Assembly (NCBI GenBank): GCA_029862005.1
Contig: JAOTYD010000005.1
Span: 1-64,000, forward strand
Direction: 5' to 3'
Length of the DNA stretch: 64,000 nucleotides
Source of the DNA: Gammaproteobacteria bacterium
GTDB lineage: Bacteria > Pseudomonadota > Gammaproteobacteria > GCA-001735895
The notes beneath the pieces are model-generated. The model was not told the origin of the DNA, did no database searches, and was given only the letters and a program-made list of their open reading frames with translations. Position 1 is the first letter of the stretch. Each line of letters opens with the position of its first letter. The position numbers and the translations under genes were made by a program. This document shows, one piece after another, positions 3,214 to 53,981 of the stretch.

Positions 3214-3807
3214 GTTAAGGACTCTCTGAATTAAAGGGGTCGGGCCGGTACCGAGAGGTGTGAATGGGTGGCACATCCTCCGTAAAGGTTGTGGGCGTCT
3301 CAGTTCTCGATCAACTCAAAGCCTCCTTCACGCCGCCGCGGACTTTGCGTATATCTATGAATTTCACCCGGGTGGTTGTAGAGAAACCGGACCCGGCTCT
3401 AACTGCGATCCTATCGCGAGACTCAAAACCCTTACGCATAAAATACGGGCTGTTCGGGCTTTATAACTACTTGTCCCTTTAACTATTAAGCCTCGACCCG
3501 GCGGATTTTTTATATCTACTAGTGTCTCTTGTTGGCCGAAGATTGCCCCTGGCAAAGAATTTGTCAACGTCTGCTTTGAAGAAATCACTCGGCCTTATCG
3601 ACAATAAATCCGTTTGATCTGATGTCGTTTATCTACGGGTGTCGCCGAATTCCCCAGCTCTCGGAAGGCTAAGTAAAAGTTGCACAATAGATAGTTGTCT
3701 GGATTGACTTTTATTAAAAACTTCATAATATACTTTACAAATCGGATATAAGTTATTAAATTTAAATGACTTGTTCATTCGAATTAATTGAATAAATGGG
3801 GGGATTC
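3214..3807. other. AT-rich intergenic region with second copy of a diverged repeat
   Basis: Nearly 600 bases with no convincing gene. A rightward open frame at 3264-3482 (about 72 codons) has no homology I recognise and no ribosome binding site. The region holds repeat copy B (3532-3592) and turns strongly AT-rich just before the small gene at 3808, which suggests a promoter region, but I cannot fix -35/-10 boxes. Confidence 0.5.
3532..3592 (+). repeat. Diverged interspersed repeat, copy B
   Basis: Begins ttggccgaagattgcc, identical over 16 bases to copy A at 1733, then continues with recognisable but diverged similarity (gtctgctttgaagaaa against gtcggctttggagaaa). Both copies are in the same orientation about 1.8 kb apart. 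Confidence 0.5.
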
Positions 3808-3990
3808 ATGGAATTGTCTTATGCCAACGATATGGTCGATCGGCGTGCTTCTACGCGTGATCGGCGTTTCTTCGGAGACCGGCGCTCCATCGTTTTACCC
3901 AACCTGTCAGATGAATCGCGTCGGATTACGGTGACTGATCGTCGCAGCAGGTTTGTCGATCGGCGAATGCAACAACGCGTGTCTGCGTAA
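3808..3990 (+). CDS. Small arginine-rich protein with repeated DRR motifs
   Basis: A 60-residue protein of unknown function. The ATG at 3808 is preferred over the one at 3796 because a run of G (GGGGGGA) sits at ribosome-binding distance before it. The sequence contains five DRR triplets (VDRRAS, RDRRFF, GDRRSI, TDRRSR, VDRRMQ), spread over most of its length and giving a highly charged, probably extended chain. The repeats are visible at DNA level as gatcggcg/gaccggcg. No signal peptide or membrane segment is seen. It lies next to another unknown gene in the AT-rich region. The regular motif and the ribosome binding site make a real gene likely. Confidence 0.6.
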   Translation: MELSYANDMVDRRASTRDRRFFGDRRSIVLPNLSDESRRITVTDRRSRFVDRRMQQRVSA

Positions 3991-4122
3991 GCAAATGGGG
4001 TATCGCTGCGAAATGCAAGTACATGTCCATAGTACTTTTCGATGTTAGCACCGAAATTCCTAAAAGCATCCCGGATGCGCTTGTGAACTAACTCCCTTTA
4101 TATAACGGGCTGAATTGGGGCG

Positions 4123-5472: not shown

Positions 5473-6376
5473 GCTCGCTGCCTCGATACTCGATCGAAGT
5501 ACTATAACGAGGATCGTCATGCAGGGCCCAGTAGGCCGCATTCAGCTTTGCCGTCAACGCACCCGGCTTACCGTCCCCAACCTGTTGATCCGCGATCCTC
5601 GTAACCGGCATAACACCGCCCGCGGTGCTGGTGATGAACATCTCGTCAGCAGTTCGTGCCAGGGCTGCGGGCAGCGCGTCCTGCACCACCTCCAGGTCTT
5701 CCTTCATCAGCAACTCAAGTATCGTCAGACGGGTCACCCCCTCGAGCACACCGCGTGCAGGCGTGATTACGGTACCACCCCGGCGCACGAATACGTTAAA
5801 CCCCGGTCCTTCTACGAGATTGCCCTCGGCGTCAACGAGCACCGCGCTATCGGCGTTATTGTCATAGGCTTCGAACAGGGCCATGACCATATCGAGCCAA
5901 TGATAATTCTTGATCGTGGAATCGACTGACTCGGGCGGGATACGCTGCTGATGGCTGATTAATAGATTGAGCCCCCGCTCGCGCAGCGCGTCATCGGCGA
6001 TCCAGATGAAGGGGATGGCGAACGCCAGAAACCGGTTTTCACAACTGCGTGGGTCGCGTGATCCGGGCGCGGGTATGCCCCGGGTACAGACAATTTCGAC
6101 ATAGGCATCTTGCAAATTGCTGCGGCTGACCAGCTCGAACATGATTGATCGAACCTGTTCGCGGCTGTAGGGCAACGACATGCGCAGTTTTGCCACGCTG
6201 GCATGAAAACGGTCCAGGTACTCATCAATGCGAAAAAATTTACCCCGCCAGGCGTGTGCGACATCGTAGGTTGCATCTGAATGCAGGAATCCCCAATCCA
6301 GCACAGGGATTCTGGCCTCGGCAACCGGTATGTAGCTGTCATCGATAAATGCAATGCCCTGTGAAAAATCCGCCAT
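5465..6376 (-). CDS. Class IV PLP aminotransferase (D-amino acid / branched-chain type)
   Basis: A 303-residue fold-type IV aminotransferase; these enzymes exchange an amino group between an amino acid and a 2-oxo acid using pyridoxal phosphate. The probable PLP lysine is K156 in TIKNYHW, and E189 in [12 protein letters not shown] matches the conserved glutamate facing the cofactor ring. The open frame continues upstream, but the start at 6376 (MADFSQG) follows the preceding enoyl-CoA hydratase by only seven bases and fits family length. It could be a D-alanine, branched-chain or omega-type aminotransferase; sequence alone does not decide. It is co-transcribed with the SDR, which it overlaps by 8 bases. 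Confidence 0.9.
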
Positions 6377-44727: not shown

Positions 44728-45240
44728 GTGCCCAAGTTCATCGTCAACTACGTCAAGGTGATCGACTACCTGTCGACCAAGTTTGGGCGCCTGGCCATGT
44801 ACCTGATCTTTGTCATGATCGCTACCCTGCTCATCAACGCCTTCACGCGCAATATCATCAACTTGCCGCTATCGTGGTGCATCGAAATGGCGCAGTTCAC
44901 GATGACCGCCTATTACATCGTCGGCGGCCCCTACTCAATGCAGCTCGACAGTCATGTCCGCATGGACTTGCTGTATTCAAGATTCAGTCCTAAAAACCGG
45001 GCCCGCCTCGACAGTTTTACCGCGATTTTCCTGGTGGTATATCTCGTCTGCCTGTTGATCGGTGCAATCTCGAGCACGATGTACGCGATCGAATACGATC
45101 AGCGCAAGTTTTCACAATGGAATCCGTCGATGATTCCGATCAAGGTGATCATGGTGTTCGGCATTTTCCTGATGCTGCTGCAGGCCATTTCCACCTTCTT
45201 CAAGGACCTGGCCAAATCCAGGGGTATCGAGCTGTCATGA
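44728..45240 (+). CDS. dctQ: TRAP transporter small permease (DctQ-type)
   Basis: A 170-residue four-helix membrane protein, the small subunit of a tripartite ATP-independent periplasmic transporter. Segments GRLAMYLIFVMIATLLINAF, the WCIEMAQFTM helix and VRMDLLYSRFSPKNRARLD are characteristic. The start is GTG at 44728 with a strong G-rich ribosome binding site (GGGGGAG). It overlaps the large permease gene by four bases (ATGA). Confidence 0.92.
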   Translation: MPKFIVNYVKVIDYLSTKFGRLAMYLIFVMIATLLINAFTRNIINLPLSWCIEMAQFTMTAYYIVGGPYSMQLDSHVRMDLLYSRFSPKNRARLDSFTAIFLVVYLVCLLIGAISSTMYAIEYDQRKFSQWNPSMIPIKVIMVFGIFLMLLQAISTFFKDLAKSRGIELS

Positions 45241-46559
45241 GTTACGAAACCATTGCCATCTTCATGTTCGTGTCGATGTTGCTGATGCTGTTGACCGGGC
45301 AACGCGTGTTCGCCGCAATCGGTATCGTTTCGTCGGTCGCGGCGCTGTTACTGTGGGGTGACGGTGCGGTTGAGATGCCGTTTAACGCGGCGTTTAAACT
45401 GTTTAACTGGTACCCGTTGCTGACCCTGCCACTGTTTATCTACATGGGCTACGTCCTCGCAGAATCGGGCATTGCAGATGACCTCTATGCCATGTTCCAC
45501 GTCTGGTTCGGCGGCCTCAGGGGAGGCCTCGCGGTCGGCACCATACTGCTGATGGTGGTTATCTCCGCGATGAACGGACTCAGCGTGGCTGGTATGGCCA
45601 TCGGCGCGACGATTGCGTTACCGGAAATGCTCAAGCGGGGTTACGACAAGATAATGATCACCGGGGTCATCCAGTCGGGCAGTTCGCTCGGCATCCTGGT
45701 GCCGCCAAGTGTCGTGCTGGTGCTCTACGGCATGATCGCGCGCCAACCGGTCGGCCAGCTCTGGCTTGCCGGGGCAATTCCGGGCCTGATGATGGCGACT
45801 CTGCTGATCATCTACATCGTCGTAAGATGTCATTTCCAGCCTCATCTCGGACCGACCGTCGCTCAATCGGAACGCGACATGCCGATGTCGGAAAAACTAA
45901 AGCTACTGCGCGCGGGCATTACCCCGTTCCTGATTTTCTTTTTCATGACCGGCCTGTTCATCATGGGGATTACGAGCCTGGTGGAGAGTTCAGCCGTCGG
46001 TGCAACCGCTGCCACGATAGCGGCCCTGGTACGCAAGCGCCTGAACCGCAAGGTGATGGAAGAAACCATCCGTAAAACACTGGCCATATCCTGCATGTTC
46101 ATGTGGGTAATCCTTGCAGCGCTCGGCTTTGGTGCAGTATTCGACGGCATCGGTGCTGCGCGCGCGATCGAATCACTGTTTATCACCAACTGGAATCTGA
46201 CTCCCTGGGAAGTGCTGATCATGATGCAGCTTTCCTACCTGGTTATGGGCATGTTCCTCGACGATACCGCGATGCTGGTCATCGTCGCCCCGCTCTACGT
46301 ACCGCTGGTCAAACTGCTGGGGTTCGACCCGATCTGGTACGGCGTGCTCTATACCATCACCTGCCAGATTGCATACATGACACCGCCATTTGGATACAAT
46401 CTGTTCCTGATGCGCGCAATGGCGCCACCTGAAATAACGTTGATGGATATTTATCGATCGATAATACCTTTTGTCATGGTCATGACCTTTGCACTGGTCC
46501 TGGTCATGGTTTTTCCGCAGATCGCCCTCTGGTTACCCGAATACGTGTATTCGAAATAA
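45237..46559 (+). CDS. dctM: TRAP transporter large permease (DctM-type)
   Basis: A 440-residue permease with about a dozen membrane helices, the sodium-coupled transport core of the TRAP system. Motifs typical of DctM include GGLRGGLAVGTILLMVVISAMNG, SGSSLGILVPPSVVLVLYGM and the end QIAYMTPPFGYNLF. The start at 45237 overlaps dctQ; longer versions of the frame run inside dctQ. The substrate-binding gene follows. TRAP systems of this set usually import organic acids. Confidence 0.93.
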   Translation: MSYETIAIFMFVSMLLMLLTGQRVFAAIGIVSSVAALLLWGDGAVEMPFNAAFKLFNWYPLLTLPLFIYMGYVLAESGIADDLYAMFHVWFGGLRGGLAVGTILLMVVISAMNGLSVAGMAIGATIALPEMLKRGYDKIMITGVIQSGSSLGILVPPSVVLVLYGMIARQPVGQLWLAGAIPGLMMATLLIIYIVVRCHFQPHLGPTVAQSERDMPMSEKLKLLRAGITPFLIFFFMTGLFIMGITSLVESSAVGATAATIAALVRKRLNRKVMEETIRKTLAISCMFMWVILAALGFGAVFDGIGAARAIESLFITNWNLTPWEVLIMMQLSYLVMGMFLDDTAMLVIVAPLYVPLVKLLGFDPIWYGVLYTITCQIAYMTPPFGYNLFLMRAMAPPEITLMDIYRSIIPFVMVMTFALVLVMVFPQIALWLPEYVYSK

Positions 46560-46630
46560 CGGGAAAGAGGTTTATTATTGGGAGTCCAGTGGAAAATTAA
46601 CTGAAGCCTAAACCTTAGGAGCCTTTAAAT

Positions 46631-47728
46631 ATGAAACAAGATAAGAAAGCATCCAAACCGGACGCAACCCAACCGAAAGACAACAGCAGACGAAGTTTTG
46701 TCAAAAAAGTAGGTGCCGGAACAGCGGGCATCCTGGCGGCAAGCACGGCACCCTATGCCTACTCCGCAAGCAATCCGATCAAGTGGCGTTTGCAAACCTA
46801 TTCAGGCGCACCGCTAGGCGCGCACGTTATCCTGCCGCAAATCGAGGAGTTCAACAAGGCAGCGCATGGACGGATGGAGATCGAACTCTATTACGCCGAC
46901 CAGCTGGTGCCGACCGACGAACTGTTTCGTGCGATGCAAAATGGCACCATCGACGCGGTACAGAGCGACGATGCTACGATGGCATCACCGGTGGATATCA
47001 GCGTGTTCGGCGGTTACTTCCCGTTTTCGACCCGTTACAGCCTCGACCTGCCGGTCCTGTTCAAGTATTACGGCCTCGACGATATTTGGGCGGAAGCCTA
47101 CGGAGAAGTCAAGAACGTTGAATGGATCAGCGCCGGCGCCTGGGATCCGCTGCATATTTTTACCAAGGAACCGATCCGTTCTATAGCCGACATGAAAGGC
47201 AAGCGCGTATTCGGCGTGCCGACCGCGGGTAAATTCCTGTCACGTTACGGCCTGGTGCCAGTCACGCTGCCCTGGGACGATATCGAAGTCGCAATCCAGA
47301 CCGGCGAACTCGACGGGGTGGCCTGGTGCGGCTTTACCGAGGCCTACGAAGTGGGCTGGGCGGATGTCTGTAACTATGCGCTGCTGAACAACGTGACCGG
47401 TGCCTGGTGCGGTTCCTACTTCGCCAACTCGAAGAGCTGGAACGCGCTGACACCGGATTTGCAGGCTCTGTTCCGCATGTCCTGTAACGATTCGCACTAT
47501 TATCGCCAGGTCTGGTACTGGGGTGGAGAAGCCGATCTGCGCGTCAACGGCAAGAAGATGGAACTGACCACGATACCTGCCGATGAATGGGACAAGGTGG
47601 TGGCCGACTCGGCTGAATTCTGGGAAGAGCTGGCATCCATCAGCCCGCGCACCAAGAAGGTCGTGGACGCGTTCAAGAAGTACTCCGAGGTCATGGAGAA
47701 AACCGGCGTACCCTATCGTTACAGCTAG
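46631..47728 (+). CDS. dctP: TRAP transporter substrate-binding protein (DctP-type) with Tat-like signal
   Basis: A 365-residue binding protein. The N-terminus SRRSFVKKVGAG followed by a hydrophobic stretch is a twin-arginine signal, so it is probably exported folded. The mature part follows the DctP pattern, with WRLQTYSGAPLGAHVILPQ, VQSDDATMASPV and GKRVFGVPTAGKFLSRYG; the conserved ligand Arg should lie near this last segment. Close relatives act on 2-oxo or aromatic acids, but ligand identity is open. The gene is third in the TRAP operon and is followed by a terminator. Confidence 0.9.
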   Translation: MKQDKKASKPDATQPKDNSRRSFVKKVGAGTAGILAASTAPYAYSASNPIKWRLQTYSGAPLGAHVILPQIEEFNKAAHGRMEIELYYADQLVPTDELFRAMQNGTIDAVQSDDATMASPVDISVFGGYFPFSTRYSLDLPVLFKYYGLDDIWAEAYGEVKNVEWISAGAWDPLHIFTKEPIRSIADMKGKRVFGVPTAGKFLSRYGLVPVTLPWDDIEVAIQTGELDGVAWCGFTEAYEVGWADVCNYALLNNVTGAWCGSYFANSKSWNALTPDLQALFRMSCNDSHYYRQVWYWGGEADLRVNGKKMELTTIPADEWDKVVADSAEFWEELASISPRTKKVVDAFKKYSEVMEKTGVPYRYS

Positions 47729-47802: not shown

Positions 47803-48897
47803 TCAGTCGGGTGGTATCAGCACCAGTTTACCGGTGAACTTTTTTTCCAGGAATACCTGTTGCGCATTACCGATTTCAGCGAGTGGGAAAGTTTTCGCAA
47901 CCAACGGTCGGATTTCACCGCGCTCGATATAACCAACCAGGTTTTCAAAAACAACATCATCCTGGAATGTACAGCCGATCAAGGTCAAATCCTTGAGATA
48001 CAGTGTGCGCACATCCAGTTCGACCAGGGGTCCGGCGATCGCGCCTGCGGTTACGTAACGACCACCCCGCTTGAGCACTTCGAGCAACAACGGCCATCCC
48101 TCGCCGGCAACCAGGTCGACAACTACGTCGATACTGACGGCTCCAATGGCAGCAACCAGATCCGCACCACGGTCGATAACCTCGTCTGCGCCAAGCGCGC
48201 GCAAGTCTTCCATCTTCGCTGTACTGGCAATCGCGATGACATGGGCACCGCGGCGTTTGGCAAGCTGAACGGCGGCCGAACCAACCCCGCCAGAGGCGCC
48301 GGTAACAAGCACGCGCTCCGCACCGACAGCGGCCCGATGTAGCATGTTCTCAGCGGTCGAGTAGGCGCAAGGAATCGAAGCGAGTTCGGCATCGGTCCAG
48401 TCGCATTCAACCTGGTAAGTCTCGCGTGCCGGCGCCCTGGTATATTGCGCGAAGGCGCCATCGCATTCAGAGCCCAAGGTCCAGCACTCGAAGGGCCGGT
48501 AATCGACATAGCTACGCAACATGTTACGTACTATTACTCTTTCGCCAATTCGGTCGCCATCGACACCGTCACCGACTGCAACGATAGTCCCACAGCAGTC
48601 CGCACCCTGTATACGCGGAAATTCCATCGGCACTCCGGACCAGGTCGCATCCTCATTGTCGACTTCGTCGAAGCCGTCCGCACCCCCGTCATTGGTCGCA
48701 TCCCTGACTTTCTTGGAATACCAACCTATGCGGGTATTGATGTCGGTGTTGTTGGCGCCGGCAGCTGCCACTTTTATCAATACTTCGCCTGGGCCAGGCA
48801 TCGGCACAGGAACATCTTCTCGATATTGAAGGGTTTCGATACCGCCGTGACCGGTCAGGTAAACCGCCGTCATGTGCTGTGGGATTTTATTGTCCAT
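47803..48897 (-). CDS. Zinc-type alcohol dehydrogenase / quinone oxidoreductase family protein
   Basis: A 364-residue medium-chain dehydrogenase/reductase. The N-terminal catalytic domain has PGPGEVLIKVAAAGANNTDIN and the core IQGADCCGTIVAVG. The Rossmann motif is VTGASGGVGSAAVQLA. The structural zinc cysteine cluster is not evident, so it may be zinc-free, like quinone oxidoreductases. It ends in EKKFTGKLVLIP. It follows the broken FAD oxidase gene in a leftward set with hydantoinase genes, so a role in the same route is possible. Confidence 0.88.
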   Translation of the reverse strand: MDNKIPQHMTAVYLTGHGGIETLQYREDVPVPMPGPGEVLIKVAAAGANNTDINTRIGWYSKKVRDATNDGGADGFDEVDNEDATWSGVPMEFPRIQGADCCGTIVAVGDGVDGDRIGERVIVRNMLRSYVDYRPFECWTLGSECDGAFAQYTRAPARETYQVECDWTDAELASIPCAYSTAENMLHRAAVGAERVLVTGASGGVGSAAVQLAKRRGAHVIAIASTAKMEDLRALGADEVIDRGADLVAAIGAVSIDVVVDLVAGEGWPLLLEVLKRGGRYVTAGAIAGPLVELDVRTLYLKDLTLIGCTFQDDVVFENLVGYIERGEIRPLVAKTFPLAEIGNAQQVFLEKKFTGKLVLIPPD

Positions 48898-48963: not shown

Positions 48964-50184
48964 TCATATGATAGCCTTTTCATTGAAAGGCTCATTGCGT
49001 TCTATACGCTGGAAATTAAATGGTGTCAGATCGAGCGAGCGGTATTCACCGTAGGTAATCAACTCTGATGTACCGCGACCCATCGCTGGAGACTGTTGCA
49101 ATCCATGGCCGGAGAAACCGTTAACGAAAATAAAATTTTCGATGATAGTATGCCGGCCGAGTATCGCATTTTGATCAAACGTATTAAAGGCATAGTGACC
49201 GGCCCAGGAATTGACCAGCTTGATCGCCTCGAACTGTGGGATTCGAGCCGCAATTATCGGCCATACTTTGTCCTGCCATAGACTATGGTCCTGTTCGAAA
49301 TCATCGTAGTCGACAGCTGGATCATCGTCAGGTGGGCAACCGGCCAGGTAGTAGGTGCCATCGGTACGCATATGCACGCCCGACGGATCGATGGTCAACG
49401 GCAGATCCCGATCCAATGGCTGTTCGGCATCAAAAATAAAAGTGTATCGCTTACGTGGCTCGACCGGCAATTCGATGCCCGCCATGCGTGACGTCAATAC
49501 CGCTCTTGGGCCGGAGGCGTTGACGACGGTACCGCAAACGACCACTTCGCCTGATCGAAGCGTTACGTTTTCAACCCTGGTATCACTGCTATTTCGGGTC
49601 ATTGCGATCACCTCGTTGCCAACGTATTCAGCCCCTTTTTCCCTTGCCGAACGCCGCCACCAGTCAAACAGCGTAGCACCGTCAAAGTAACCCTCGTCGA
49701 CCAGGTTGTGACTGCCAACCACGATATCGTCCACGTTATAAAAAGGGTAATCGTGCTTAATCTCTTCCGCAGTCATGATTTTTGTGCCCGCACCGCAGCT
49801 CGCCTGTACTGACTGGCTTTCACGCAATACATCGGCAAAGGCTTCGTTGTCGGCCAGGTACATGTAGCCATAGCTTCGAAAAGGTAAATCAGGCACGCGC
49901 GGATCGTTACCGAGATAGGCGCAAAAGTTTTTTACGAATTCAGCTGCGAATTGTGAGATGCGAACGTTGATCTCGCGTGAGAATTGCTGGCGCATACAGC
50001 TGTTGGTATACGCAGTCTAGCAGGCCGTATACATCGGATCTTTCTCGACCACCAGTATGGAACCATCGAAATCCGGATTGTCGGCGAGAAACCAGGCCAC
50101 CGCAGAACCGTAGATGGCTCCACCGACGATAACAACATCGTAGCTTGAATGCTGCGGGGGATTTAAGACTGGATCCTGGCCCAT
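48964..50184 (-). pseudogene. FAD-dependent amine oxidase (DAO family), interrupted by an in-frame amber codon
   Basis: Reading from the ATG at 50184 (overlapping the hydantoinase B stop as TAATG) gives the FAD motif VVIVGGAIYGSAVAW and continues to DPMYTAC. A TAG at 50017-50019 (codon 56) follows, and the same frame then continues as TAYTNSCMRQQFSREINVRI to the normal end, 406 codons in all. Relatives have sense codons here. A second start at 49995 would give 343 residues lacking the FAD-binding N-terminus, so it would not be active. No base shift is needed, only one stop. It may be a real pseudogene, a sequence error or a rare readthrough case. Neighbours suggest sarcosine- or amino-acid-type oxidation. 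Confidence 0.85.
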
Positions 50185-51893
50185 TACAAAACATCACCGC
50201 GCTTGACCGCATCGACGACGCCGGCGATTTCAGAATCGCTCAATCCGTACTCGGTGCGGGCGACTGCTGCCGAAATATAACCGCGCGCCAGGTCTCTACG
50301 CACCAGTGCTTTACCTCTTTCACGTGGATCGCCGTAACCCGCACCTCCCGGCATCGCCAGCATCACGCGCCGACCAGCCGGAACGAACTGCTTGCCCTTG
50401 CCCTTCATCGCCTGGCCGTCGTCGCGGGCTATGGTCATGGCAGCGCCGTGTTTACCACCCTGCCGACCTCTTGCCGGATGGTCGACCCGATCGAACATTG
50501 CGGAAAAATCAAATTCGTGACCCTCGGTGGCACCGACTTCCATATATTGCCCGAGGCCACCACGGTACTTGCCGGCGCCACCACTATCTGGACGCAACTC
50601 CTTGCGCCAGATAATCACCGGGCCGGTGTGCTCGGTTGCCTCGACGGGCATAGTCATAACACCCGACGGGAACGCGGTGGCATTGAGACCATCCGACGTC
50701 GGGCGCGCACCGGAGCCTCCCGAGTTGAAGGCCAGGACTTCGGCCCTGACCGTATTCGCCGGCGCCTCGGTGTCGGTCCTCGGGCGCAGCGACAACTGGA
50801 AATTACACAAGGTACCGGCGCCTTCCGCCGGCACCGTAGCGGGCAGGATCTGGTCGAGCGCGGCGTAGACCGCGTCGGGAATCATGTGGCCGATCACATG
50901 TCGCAGGGCTACCGGCGCGGGATGCACCGCGTTGACGATCGTGTTCTCGGGAGCGGTGATCTCGAACGGTGCCAGCGACGCTGCATTGTTCGGAATCTCC
51001 GGCGCGATGGCGCATTTCAATGCAAAACAGGCATAGGCCTTGGTGTAAACCAGTGGCACGTTGATACCTTTGCGGTCGAGCCCCGAGGTGCCGGTAAAAT
51101 CGCACAGGATCCGATCGGGCTGGATATCCAGCGTCACCTCGAGTTTTACCGGATGACTATAGCCGTCGATCGTCATTGAGCCCGAGGCCTGCGCACGCGG
51201 TAATGCGGCGATGCGCTCCAGCGTCGCGCGACGAGAATTATCCAGGATGAAGTCCGCGATGTCGTCCAGGTCCGATAAGGCGAACTCGTTCATCATGTCG
51301 ATCAGGCGCCGGTGACCGATCTCGTTGCAGGTCGCCAGCGCATAAAAATCGCCGACCGCCTGGTCCGGTTCGCGTACATTTCCACGCACGATTCGAATCA
51401 GGGTCTTGTCGACTTCTCCCCTTTCGGCGAATTTCATGATCGGGATATAGAGACCTTCTTCATAAATCGAATTGGCGTCGGCGCCAAATCCGCGACCGCC
51501 GATATCGACGATATGCGCGGTACAACCGAGGAAGCCAACATGCCGGCCCTCGTGGAAGGCGGGCGTGACAACCGTTATGTCATGCAGGTGGCCGGTGCCT
51601 TCCCAGGGATCATTGGTGATATAAACGTCACCTTCGAACATGTTGTCGTAGCCGATCCGACGAATGAAATGTGCGACCGCATCGGCCATCGCGTTGACGT
51701 GGCCGGGTGTCCCGGTAACGGCCTGCGCCAGCATCTGCCCGCGGGTGTCATAAACGCCGGCCGACAGATCACCGGCTTCGCGCACCGAGGCTGAAAAAGC
51801 GGTTCGAATGAGCGCCTGGGCCTGCTCTTCGACGACGGATATCAAGCGATTCCACATGACCTGGTGAGATACTGTCGAGGTTTTGCGGGTCAC
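50184..51893 (-). CDS. hyuB: Hydantoinase B/oxoprolinase family protein (HyuB)
   Basis: A 569-residue subunit of an ATP-dependent hydantoinase or acetophenone-carboxylase-like enzyme. The start MWNRLISVVEEQAQALIRTAFSASVREAGDLSAGV is a clear HyuB signature, as are GTPGHVNAMADAVAHF and GGSGARPTSDGLNATAFPSGVM. It is paired with HyuA upstream, with only nine bases between. It likely opens an N-methylhydantoin-like or 5-oxoproline-like ring. Confidence 0.93.
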   Translation of the reverse strand: MTRKTSTVSHQVMWNRLISVVEEQAQALIRTAFSASVREAGDLSAGVYDTRGQMLAQAVTGTPGHVNAMADAVAHFIRRIGYDNMFEGDVYITNDPWEGTGHLHDITVVTPAFHEGRHVGFLGCTAHIVDIGGRGFGADANSIYEEGLYIPIMKFAERGEVDKTLIRIVRGNVREPDQAVGDFYALATCNEIGHRRLIDMMNEFALSDLDDIADFILDNSRRATLERIAALPRAQASGSMTIDGYSHPVKLEVTLDIQPDRILCDFTGTSGLDRKGINVPLVYTKAYACFALKCAIAPEIPNNAASLAPFEITAPENTIVNAVHPAPVALRHVIGHMIPDAVYAALDQILPATVPAEGAGTLCNFQLSLRPRTDTEAPANTVRAEVLAFNSGGSGARPTSDGLNATAFPSGVMTMPVEATEHTGPVIIWRKELRPDSGGAGKYRGGLGQYMEVGATEGHEFDFSAMFDRVDHPARGRQGGKHGAAMTIARDDGQAMKGKGKQFVPAGRRVMLAMPGGAGYGDPRERGKALVRRDLARGYISAAVARTEYGLSDSEIAGVVDAVKRGDVL

Positions 51894-51902
51894 GGTTCGC
51901 TC

Positions 51903-53981
51903 CTAGGTCTGTTGCACGACATCGATACAGCCATCCGACTGGCGTAGCGCCTGGCGGCTGGTCGGCAAAATAATCGTGGTTTCATCTTCCGTGATCGCAG
52001 CGGGTCCCGGCACCAGGTCGCCGGGTAACAGGCCTGAACGCGGCACTATTGAAGACTCCACGTGCTGACCTACGGCAGGGTCGAATATATTTCTGTGACC
52101 GTTGGCCGGCACCCTGGCGCCTGCCGTAAGTGCCTGCGTCGCTTCAACTTTTTGCGCCAGCGTGGTCGCGTTCGCAGACCAGACCGTAATCTCGATATCC
52201 ATGCCCTCCACGGCGCGGCCAAACAGCGCTATGTAATCCTGTTCAAACAATTGCTGATAGTTTGATGCATCCGGCTGCGTCGCCTGTTCTGTACTCAGCA
52301 CAACTGGAATTTCCTCGCCCTGCCCGGTGTAGCGCATGTAGGCTTTATATTCAGACTGGATGGTGGCGTTTGCATCACAGGAACGCACAAATGCAGTCGC
52401 CTCCGCTTCCAGGTCCGCTAAAAGGTTTCGAACCGTGTCCGGTTTGAAATCGGCCAGGCGCATGTAAACGCTGCGATTTGCCTCGAAACTGAACGGTGCC
52501 CGCAGGAAGCCGATAGCGGAACCCACACCGGCACCCGGTGGTACCAGCAGACGCTCAACCCCCAGTTTTTCGCACAGGCGACCCGCGTGCAGCGGCGCGG
52601 CACCTCCAAAGGCGATCATGGTGTACTCGGACAGGTCCTCGCCATTTTCGACGGCATGGACGCGAGCAGCATTTGCCATGTTTTCATCGACTACTTCGGC
52701 AAGTCCGTAGGCTGCGGTCAGGGCGTCCATTTCGAGAGGTTTACCGAGCGTGTTCAGTAATGCATCGGCAGCACGTTGAGCGTCAAGCTTTATCGAGCCA
52801 CCGGCAAAATTATCGGGGTCGATTTTTCCCAGTACCAGGTCGGCATCGGTGACCGCGGGTCGCTCGCCACCGAGACCATAACAGGCCGGGCCCGGCTCGG
52901 AGCCCGCGGACTCGGGCCCAACCCGGATCTGGTGCATCGTATCCACGCGCGCCAGCGAACCGCCACCTGCTCCAATCTCGACCATGTCAATCACCGGGAT
53001 TGAAATCGGCATACCCGAACCTTTTTTGAAGCGATAGGTCCTGGCGACTTCGAATACGCGGCTGGTTTTCGGCGCCTGGTTCTTGATCAGGCAAATCTTG
53101 GCGGTGGTGCCGCCCATGTCGAAGGATAGAACCTTATCGAGACCATATCGAGCAGCGATATGCGCCGCAAAAACGGCGCCACCCGCAGGACCGGATTCAA
53201 CCAGCCTGACCGGGAACTCCGCTGCACTTTCAATGGAGATGATGCCGCCACCCGAGTGCATCAGAAAGATTTTGCAGGCGACACCCTCATTCTGCAGTTG
53301 CCCGCCCAGCCGATCGAGATAACTTTTCATCATGGGCTTGATGTAGGCATTGGCGACCACAGTGTTGAAGCGCTCGTATTCGCGCATCTGGGGCGATACT
53401 TCCGATGACAGTGAAACCGAGACCCCCGGAATGGATTCGGCGAGCACGTCGCGAATCATGGTTTCATGGCGATCATTCAGGTAGGCGTGCATCAGACCTA
53501 CCGCGATGCTCTCGTACCCTGCCGGTTTAATTTTTTCTGCCAGCGCCTCGACTTCAGAACGCTGCAATGGTATCAGCACGTCACCGTTGGCGCCGATGCG
53601 TTCCTCGACGGTATAGCGTTGCTGGCGCGGTAACAACGGTTCGGGCAGCGTCAGGTTGAGATCATACTGCTCAAACCGCGACTCGCTGCGCATTTCGATA
53701 ACGTCGCGAAAGCCCCGGGTTGTAATCAACGCGGTCCTGGCACCATGTCGCTCGATCAAGGCGTTGGTCGCCAGGGTCGTACCGTGAATAATCTGCTCGA
53801 TCTGGGCCGGTTCTATCCCGGCCTGGTCGCAAACCTGCTTCATGCCCGCGATAATCGCGTCTTCGGGTGCAATGTAGGTGGTCAGTACCTTGGTCGAAAA
53901 TTGCCGGGTACCGACTTCGAGCACGACGTCGGTAAACGTCCCCCCGATATCGACACCCATCCGAATTGACGATTGATTCAT
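51903..53981 (-). CDS. hyuA: Hydantoinase A/oxoprolinase family protein (HyuA)
   Basis: A 692-residue ATPase-like subunit. The N-terminus MGVDIGGTFTDVVLE is the acetate/sugar kinase-like phosphate motif of HyuA. HGTTLATNALIERHGART, LSFDMGGTTAKICLI and the FGGAAPLHAGRLCEKLG segment are also typical. It works with HyuB in ATP-driven opening of hydantoin-like rings. The pair, followed by a DAO-family oxidase, is compatible with N-methylhydantoin to sarcosine metabolism, which is inferred. Confidence 0.93.
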   Translation of the reverse strand: MNQSSIRMGVDIGGTFTDVVLEVGTRQFSTKVLTTYIAPEDAIIAGMKQVCDQAGIEPAQIEQIIHGTTLATNALIERHGARTALITTRGFRDVIEMRSESRFEQYDLNLTLPEPLLPRQQRYTVEERIGANGDVLIPLQRSEVEALAEKIKPAGYESIAVGLMHAYLNDRHETMIRDVLAESIPGVSVSLSSEVSPQMREYERFNTVVANAYIKPMMKSYLDRLGGQLQNEGVACKIFLMHSGGGIISIESAAEFPVRLVESGPAGGAVFAAHIAARYGLDKVLSFDMGGTTAKICLIKNQAPKTSRVFEVARTYRFKKGSGMPISIPVIDMVEIGAGGGSLARVDTMHQIRVGPESAGSEPGPACYGLGGERPAVTDADLVLGKIDPDNFAGGSIKLDAQRAADALLNTLGKPLEMDALTAAYGLAEVVDENMANAARVHAVENGEDLSEYTMIAFGGAAPLHAGRLCEKLGVERLLVPPGAGVGSAIGFLRAPFSFEANRSVYMRLADFKPDTVRNLLADLEAEATAFVRSCDANATIQSEYKAYMRYTGQGEEIPVVLSTEQATQPDASNYQQLFEQDYIALFGRAVEGMDIEITVWSANATTLAQKVEATQALTAGARVPANGHRNIFDPAVGQHVESSIVPRSGLLPGDLVPGPAAITEDETTIILPTSRQALRQSDGCIDVVQQT

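Follow-up and report, generated by a model that had tools for sequence, protein, structure and literature searches.

The closest described counterparts of the gene analysed here are the flavoproteins of the DAO/GR2 family (PF01266). For one of these, PA4991, the available part of the structural description assigns Glu36 to binding of the ribose and Ser45 to binding of the FAD phosphate, and places Ser48 against the flavin ring (PMC4741190). The solved folds nearest to the model of an intact homologue, L050, include the L-proline dehydrogenase of Pyrococcus horikoshii (1y56_B; TM-score 0.79 by query length and 0.85 by target length; phmmer E 8.1e-28), with only 25% identity in the Foldseek alignment, and SoxB, the beta subunit of heterotetrameric sarcosine oxidase (1vrq_B, 2gag_B). 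With regard to the lesion itself, the nearest cases are recent bacterial pseudogenes, which, in the available parts of two reports (PMC7918605, PMC1852416), likewise have one nonsense codon in a conserved frame and purifying selection until recently. The survey in PMC7918605 concerns stops common to at least two species, whereas the stop described below occurs in none of the best 80 of 171 homologues.

The oxidase frame and its neighbours

The window, which is the whole stretch of 64,000 nucleotides that was analysed, contains a gene that matches the DAO profile and is interrupted at codon 56. The features of this locus are as follows.

48964..50184, minus strand: DAO-family (PF01266) oxidase frame with one internal TAG (ORF list, Pfam)
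50017..50019, minus strand: premature TAG at codon 56, where all of the best 80 of 171 relatives have Ser
50020..50184, minus strand: 55 N-terminal codons before the stop, with the first beta strand (from the L050 model), GGAxxG and Glu47
50107..50124, minus strand: glycine motif GGAIYG, residues 21-26 (role from fold knowledge and the available part of PMC4741190)
50008..50010, minus strand: codon 59, TAT (Tyr); in 79 aligned loci His 73, Arg 3, Cys 3, Tyr 0
48964..49995, minus strand: ATG-started ORF past the stop, 343 residues, without the main FAD-binding segment (ORF list)
50184..51893, minus strand: HyuB-like hydantoinase/oxoprolinase subunit (PF02538), open frame, overlapping the oxidase start
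51903..53981, minus strand: HyuA-like hydantoinase/oxoprolinase subunit (PF05378, PF01968, PF19278), open frame, ending in TAG
47803..48897, minus strand: alcohol dehydrogenase-like (ADH-like) gene (PF08240, PF00107), 66 bases downstream of the oxidase

The oxidase frame comprises 406 codons, from an ATG at 50184 to a TGA that ends at 48964, and the TAG at codon 56 is its sole internal stop; as the initial annotation had stated, the frame is intact on both sides of it, and the start overlaps the hydantoinase stop as TAATG, in which the TAA belongs to HyuB. The sequences on the two sides of the TAG match the Pfam DAO profile in order (positions 1-32, then 79-353), the 350-residue part alone scoring 116.1 bits and the 55-residue piece alone scoring 22.3 bits, below the cut-off of 27.9 bits. 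When the genome was searched with the same profile, one match spanned the stop, with 144.6 bits over profile positions 1-353 and "1 TAG" inside, and the gene thus belongs to PF01266, with a domain-wide score above the curated cut-off. The arrangement is no accidental overlap of ORFs, because the read-through frame aligns with 79 of the best 80 homologous loci; the remaining locus, L057, was left out of this alignment because its contig ends inside the gene.

The N-terminal segment carries the expected glycine motif, which belongs to the dinucleotide-binding fold, and an acidic residue, Glu47, after the second strand. The FAD motif reported in the initial annotation is therefore present, with the adjustment that the glycine motif is the variant GGAxxG, in which the third Gly is replaced by Ala; this variant is shared by the window gene and all 79 aligned loci, and the more distant homologue L016 has GGGxxG instead. 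As in a pseudogene, the premature stop removes conserved sequence: the part downstream of the TAG lacks the main FAD-binding segment (GGAxxG and Glu47), in agreement with the earlier reading, and keeps the later conserved segments of the domain.

The row HyuA-HyuB-oxidase-ADH probably forms one operon, and the ADH-like gene is possibly its last member. In 71 homologous loci, the sequence upstream of the oxidase extends for at least 1000 bases; HyuB is the immediate upstream neighbour in 38 of them, HyuA precedes HyuB in 37, and an ADH-like neighbour was found in the sister alone. Neither Hyu gene lies next to the oxidase in the four relatives that were compared closely (L047, L050, L067 and L080). 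The oxidase may act on an amino acid, secondary or N-substituted, that the hydantoinase releases. More specific assignments were not obtained: against the profile for sarcosine oxidase beta (TIGR01373, cut-off 529.45 bits), L050 scored 59.1 bits and the window fragments 44.1 and 19.3 bits, the curated cut-off for N-methyltryptophan oxidase was not reached, and HyuA and HyuB scored 458.9 and 179.2 bits against the caprolactamase profiles CapA/CapB (NF050156, NF050157), each with a cut-off of 1000. In literature listings on the hydantoinase/oxidase/TRAP gene row, symbiont pseudogenes and L-proline dehydrogenase, nothing was found on this oxidase gene. TRAP transporter genes on the plus strand (44728-47728 of the window; DctQ and DctP by Pfam) end near the oxidase row, and an ORF between DctQ and DctP (45117-46559) resembles a putative DctM; this transporter is possibly the uptake system for the substrate of the row.

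Codon 56 in relatives and selection on the gene

A scan of contigs found 171 relatives of the oxidase, of which the best 80 were retained for comparison of codons. All 80 have Ser at codon 56, encoded by TCC in 26, TCG in 25, TCA in 20 and TCT in 9. The oxidase gene is present in 8 of the 31 genomes of the genus (E <= 1e-60), the window's own included, and the nearest relative, or sister (L052, CALZHS010000213.1, genome G020), whose DNA is 91% identical across the gene, has TCG at this position. The same codon is found in two further genomes of the genus (L013 and L015), in L016, which is 46% identical and comes from another family of the class, and in L047, L067 and L080; L050 has TCC. Because the codon of the sister is TCG, a single C-to-A change accounts for the TAG. 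The initial annotation had likewise explained the stop by one substitution, from TCG or CAG, and had called for comparison with related genomes; the comparison supports the former origin and rejects the latter, Gln being encoded at codon 56 in none of the best 80 of the 171 relatives.

Ser56 lies within a stretch that is invariant in 40 sequences, S56-T57 ... T60-N61-S62-C63 ... R65-Q66-Q67. It follows Glu47 at a spacing of 9 residues, as Ser45 follows Glu36 in the available description of PA4991 (PMC4741190), and by spacing only it would correspond to the FAD-phosphate-binding Ser45 of that enzyme. By the same spacing only, residue 59, which is Tyr in the window copy, would take the place of Ser48 of PA4991 as partially described there.

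Comparison of the window oxidase with that of the sister gave dS 0.391, dN 0.026 and dN/dS 0.067. The hydantoinase genes gave similar values (HyuA, dS 0.362 and dN 0.027; HyuB, dS 0.402 and dN 0.025), and the ADH-like gene, within which the L052 contig ends, is more diverged (dS 0.739, dN 0.065). When changes were polarised by four outgroups, which left 15 unresolved, the window branch had 30 synonymous changes and, with the stop counted, 13 nonsynonymous ones, and the sister branch had 35 and 11, respectively. With the stop omitted, 12 nonsynonymous against 30 synonymous changes on the window branch do not differ from 11 against 35 on the sister branch (Fisher p = 0.64), and a simple Poisson bound, also with the stop omitted, limits the neutral share of the window branch to at most about 11%. 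Judging from these substitution rates, purifying selection appears to have acted on the oxidase, as on its hydantoinase partners, until very recently, and any loss would fall in about the last 11% of the branch.

Decay clustered around the stop (S28A, H59Y, R88C, G201D) was also considered, and these changes were not taken as proof of decay. At columns that are at least 90% conserved, 3 changes were counted, within the range of 0 to 5 in other close pairs, and A28 is found in two intact homologues as well, namely one of 78 loci and L016.

Probable recent inactivation and competing explanations

The TAG is probably a very recent, ordinary nonsense mutation that inactivates the oxidase within its gene row. 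The C-to-A change would have converted the conserved Ser codon 56 (TCG in the sister) to TAG, at which ribosomes would halt after 55 residues and leave no FAD-binding oxidase. Should translation restart at the ATG of codon 64, the resulting 343-residue piece would lack the GGAxxG/Glu47 segment, and no activity is expected of it. The species as a whole may be fixed for the mutation, or only the sampled strain may carry it, and the null allele is most likely very recent or still polymorphic. That the organism truly has this TAG, and that the oxidase product is inactive, is our inference. Among the three causes listed in the initial annotation, recent loss thus fits best, error is possible and suppression is unlikely in view of the tRNAs, release factor 1, the PylS search and TAG usage described below. 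Rescue by a close paralogue was considered and set aside, because none was found in the genome; among 12 matches, the one that ranks next after the oxidase itself shares 29% identity with part of the protein.

Less likely than recent inactivation, yet a possibility to be taken seriously, is a consensus error or a minority-strain base in the draft assembly (105 contigs), the organism itself then having an intact gene. Constraint that stayed normal until very recently is compatible both with a wrong base and with a null allele that is very young, and because there is no nonsynonymous excess apart from the stop, the normal purifying selection on the rest of the frame could equally be that of an intact gene with one wrong base. 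Moreover, 28 of 73 interrupted genes of M. smegmatis proved to be sequence errors on resequencing; in the available part of that report, however, none of the 28 was a substitution miscall, an absence that the authors attributed to the detection program (PMC1852416). Two further observations weigh against an error. Residue 59, three codons after the stop, is unusual as well, and a stop is found in just 1 of the 127 domain matches examined, the window oxidase itself (1 of 51 DAO matches in the genome, many of which are short, and none of the 76 ABC-transporter matches), so that no general abundance of errors is visible in the assembly.

Functional readthrough or amber suppression, by which the TAG would be decoded at some rate to give a little full-length oxidase, is very improbable. 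It would agree with the purifying selection across the frame and with a survey arguing that many bacterial in-frame stops are not pseudogenes (PMC7918605), but TAG stands at codon 56 in none of the best 80 of 171 homologues, the sister included. The search for an amber suppressor tRNA that the initial annotation had suggested gave none with a CUA anticodon, nor any other TAG-reading tRNA, among the 32 tRNA matches in the genome; because no match was labelled Ala, Ile, Glu or Trp, this set is incomplete, and a tRNA gene may have escaped it, which is a point in favour of readthrough. The genome encodes release factor 1 (558 bits; cut-off 423.25). Of 60 window ORFs that span at least 120 codons and for the most part do not overlap, 12 terminate in TAG, HyuA among them. 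No TAG-interrupted match other than the oxidase was found among those domain matches. Genome-wide recoding of TAG was rejected in view of release factor 1, the terminal use of TAG and the rarity of internal stops. A pyrrolysine system was likewise rejected: the best match to PylS in the genome scored 23.2 bits, far below the cut-off of 178.15, and 13 of 14 control genomes likewise have PylS matches at E <= 0.01. A tRNA-Sec was found, but it reads TGA and has no bearing on TAG.

A two-gene arrangement, in which the 343-residue ORF functions by itself from the ATG at codon 64, 8 codons past the stop, can practically be dismissed, because the corresponding residue in the 79 loci is Met (59) or Ile (20), inside a frame continuing from upstream, and because the GGAxxG/Glu47 segment is missing from the fragment.

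The oxidase TAG is thus most likely one nonsense mutation in an unremarkable metabolic gene rather than a new way of reading the genetic code, about which it tells nothing new. Its main consequence is a correction of annotation, since a pipeline would call a 343-residue "oxidase" without the usual FAD-binding start.

Lesions in other homologues and further observations

The oxidase gene of the sister (L052 4028-5191) retains the Ser codon 56 and lacks 54 bases in frame, corresponding to the 18 residues 112-129. When the window gene was compared with 78 loci, L057 and L122 being left out, this was the only gap of at least 3 core residues among the 79 sequences. The missing residues cover helix 114-129 in the AlphaFold model of the intact L050 (mean pLDDT 80.2), and the deletion may therefore inactivate the oxidase copy of the sister too. 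The model of the shortened protein has a mean pLDDT of 59.4, which only hints at misfolding, the underlying alignments differing in depth (27 rows against 40 for L050). Among the 80 fully read frames (the window and 79 loci), an internal stop after residue 30 is found in two, the window and L122 (DGOK01000015.1, Rhodospirillaceae UBA4468), which has TAA at codon 308 (5733-5735), a position held by Trp in the other 78 aligned loci. Both L052 and L122 come from draft assemblies, so that errors are possible there as well.

A real loss, paralleled in the sister, would indicate that one amino-acid-type oxidation step is disappearing from part of the genus. A joint proposal, that there is either a real and tolerated TAG, with leaky readthrough at a flavin-contacting Ser keeping the oxidase at a low level, or independent loss of the enzyme by two sister species, one through the stop and the other through the deletion, appears doubtful; in its second form, the way of life of the two species would have made the enzyme useless or harmful.

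Some further features of the window and its genome were noted. About 900 bases of the window (3214-4122) contain no ORF of at least 120 codons, which is the longest such gap among the listed ORFs. The genome has 51 matches to PF01266, of which 29 are at E < 1e-30 and several lie in frames of about 800 codons. The tRNA-Sec mentioned above (contig C1 of genome G000, L019 2936-3031; anticodon tca) makes selenoproteins possible, and TGA-interrupted genes of this genome therefore merit care.
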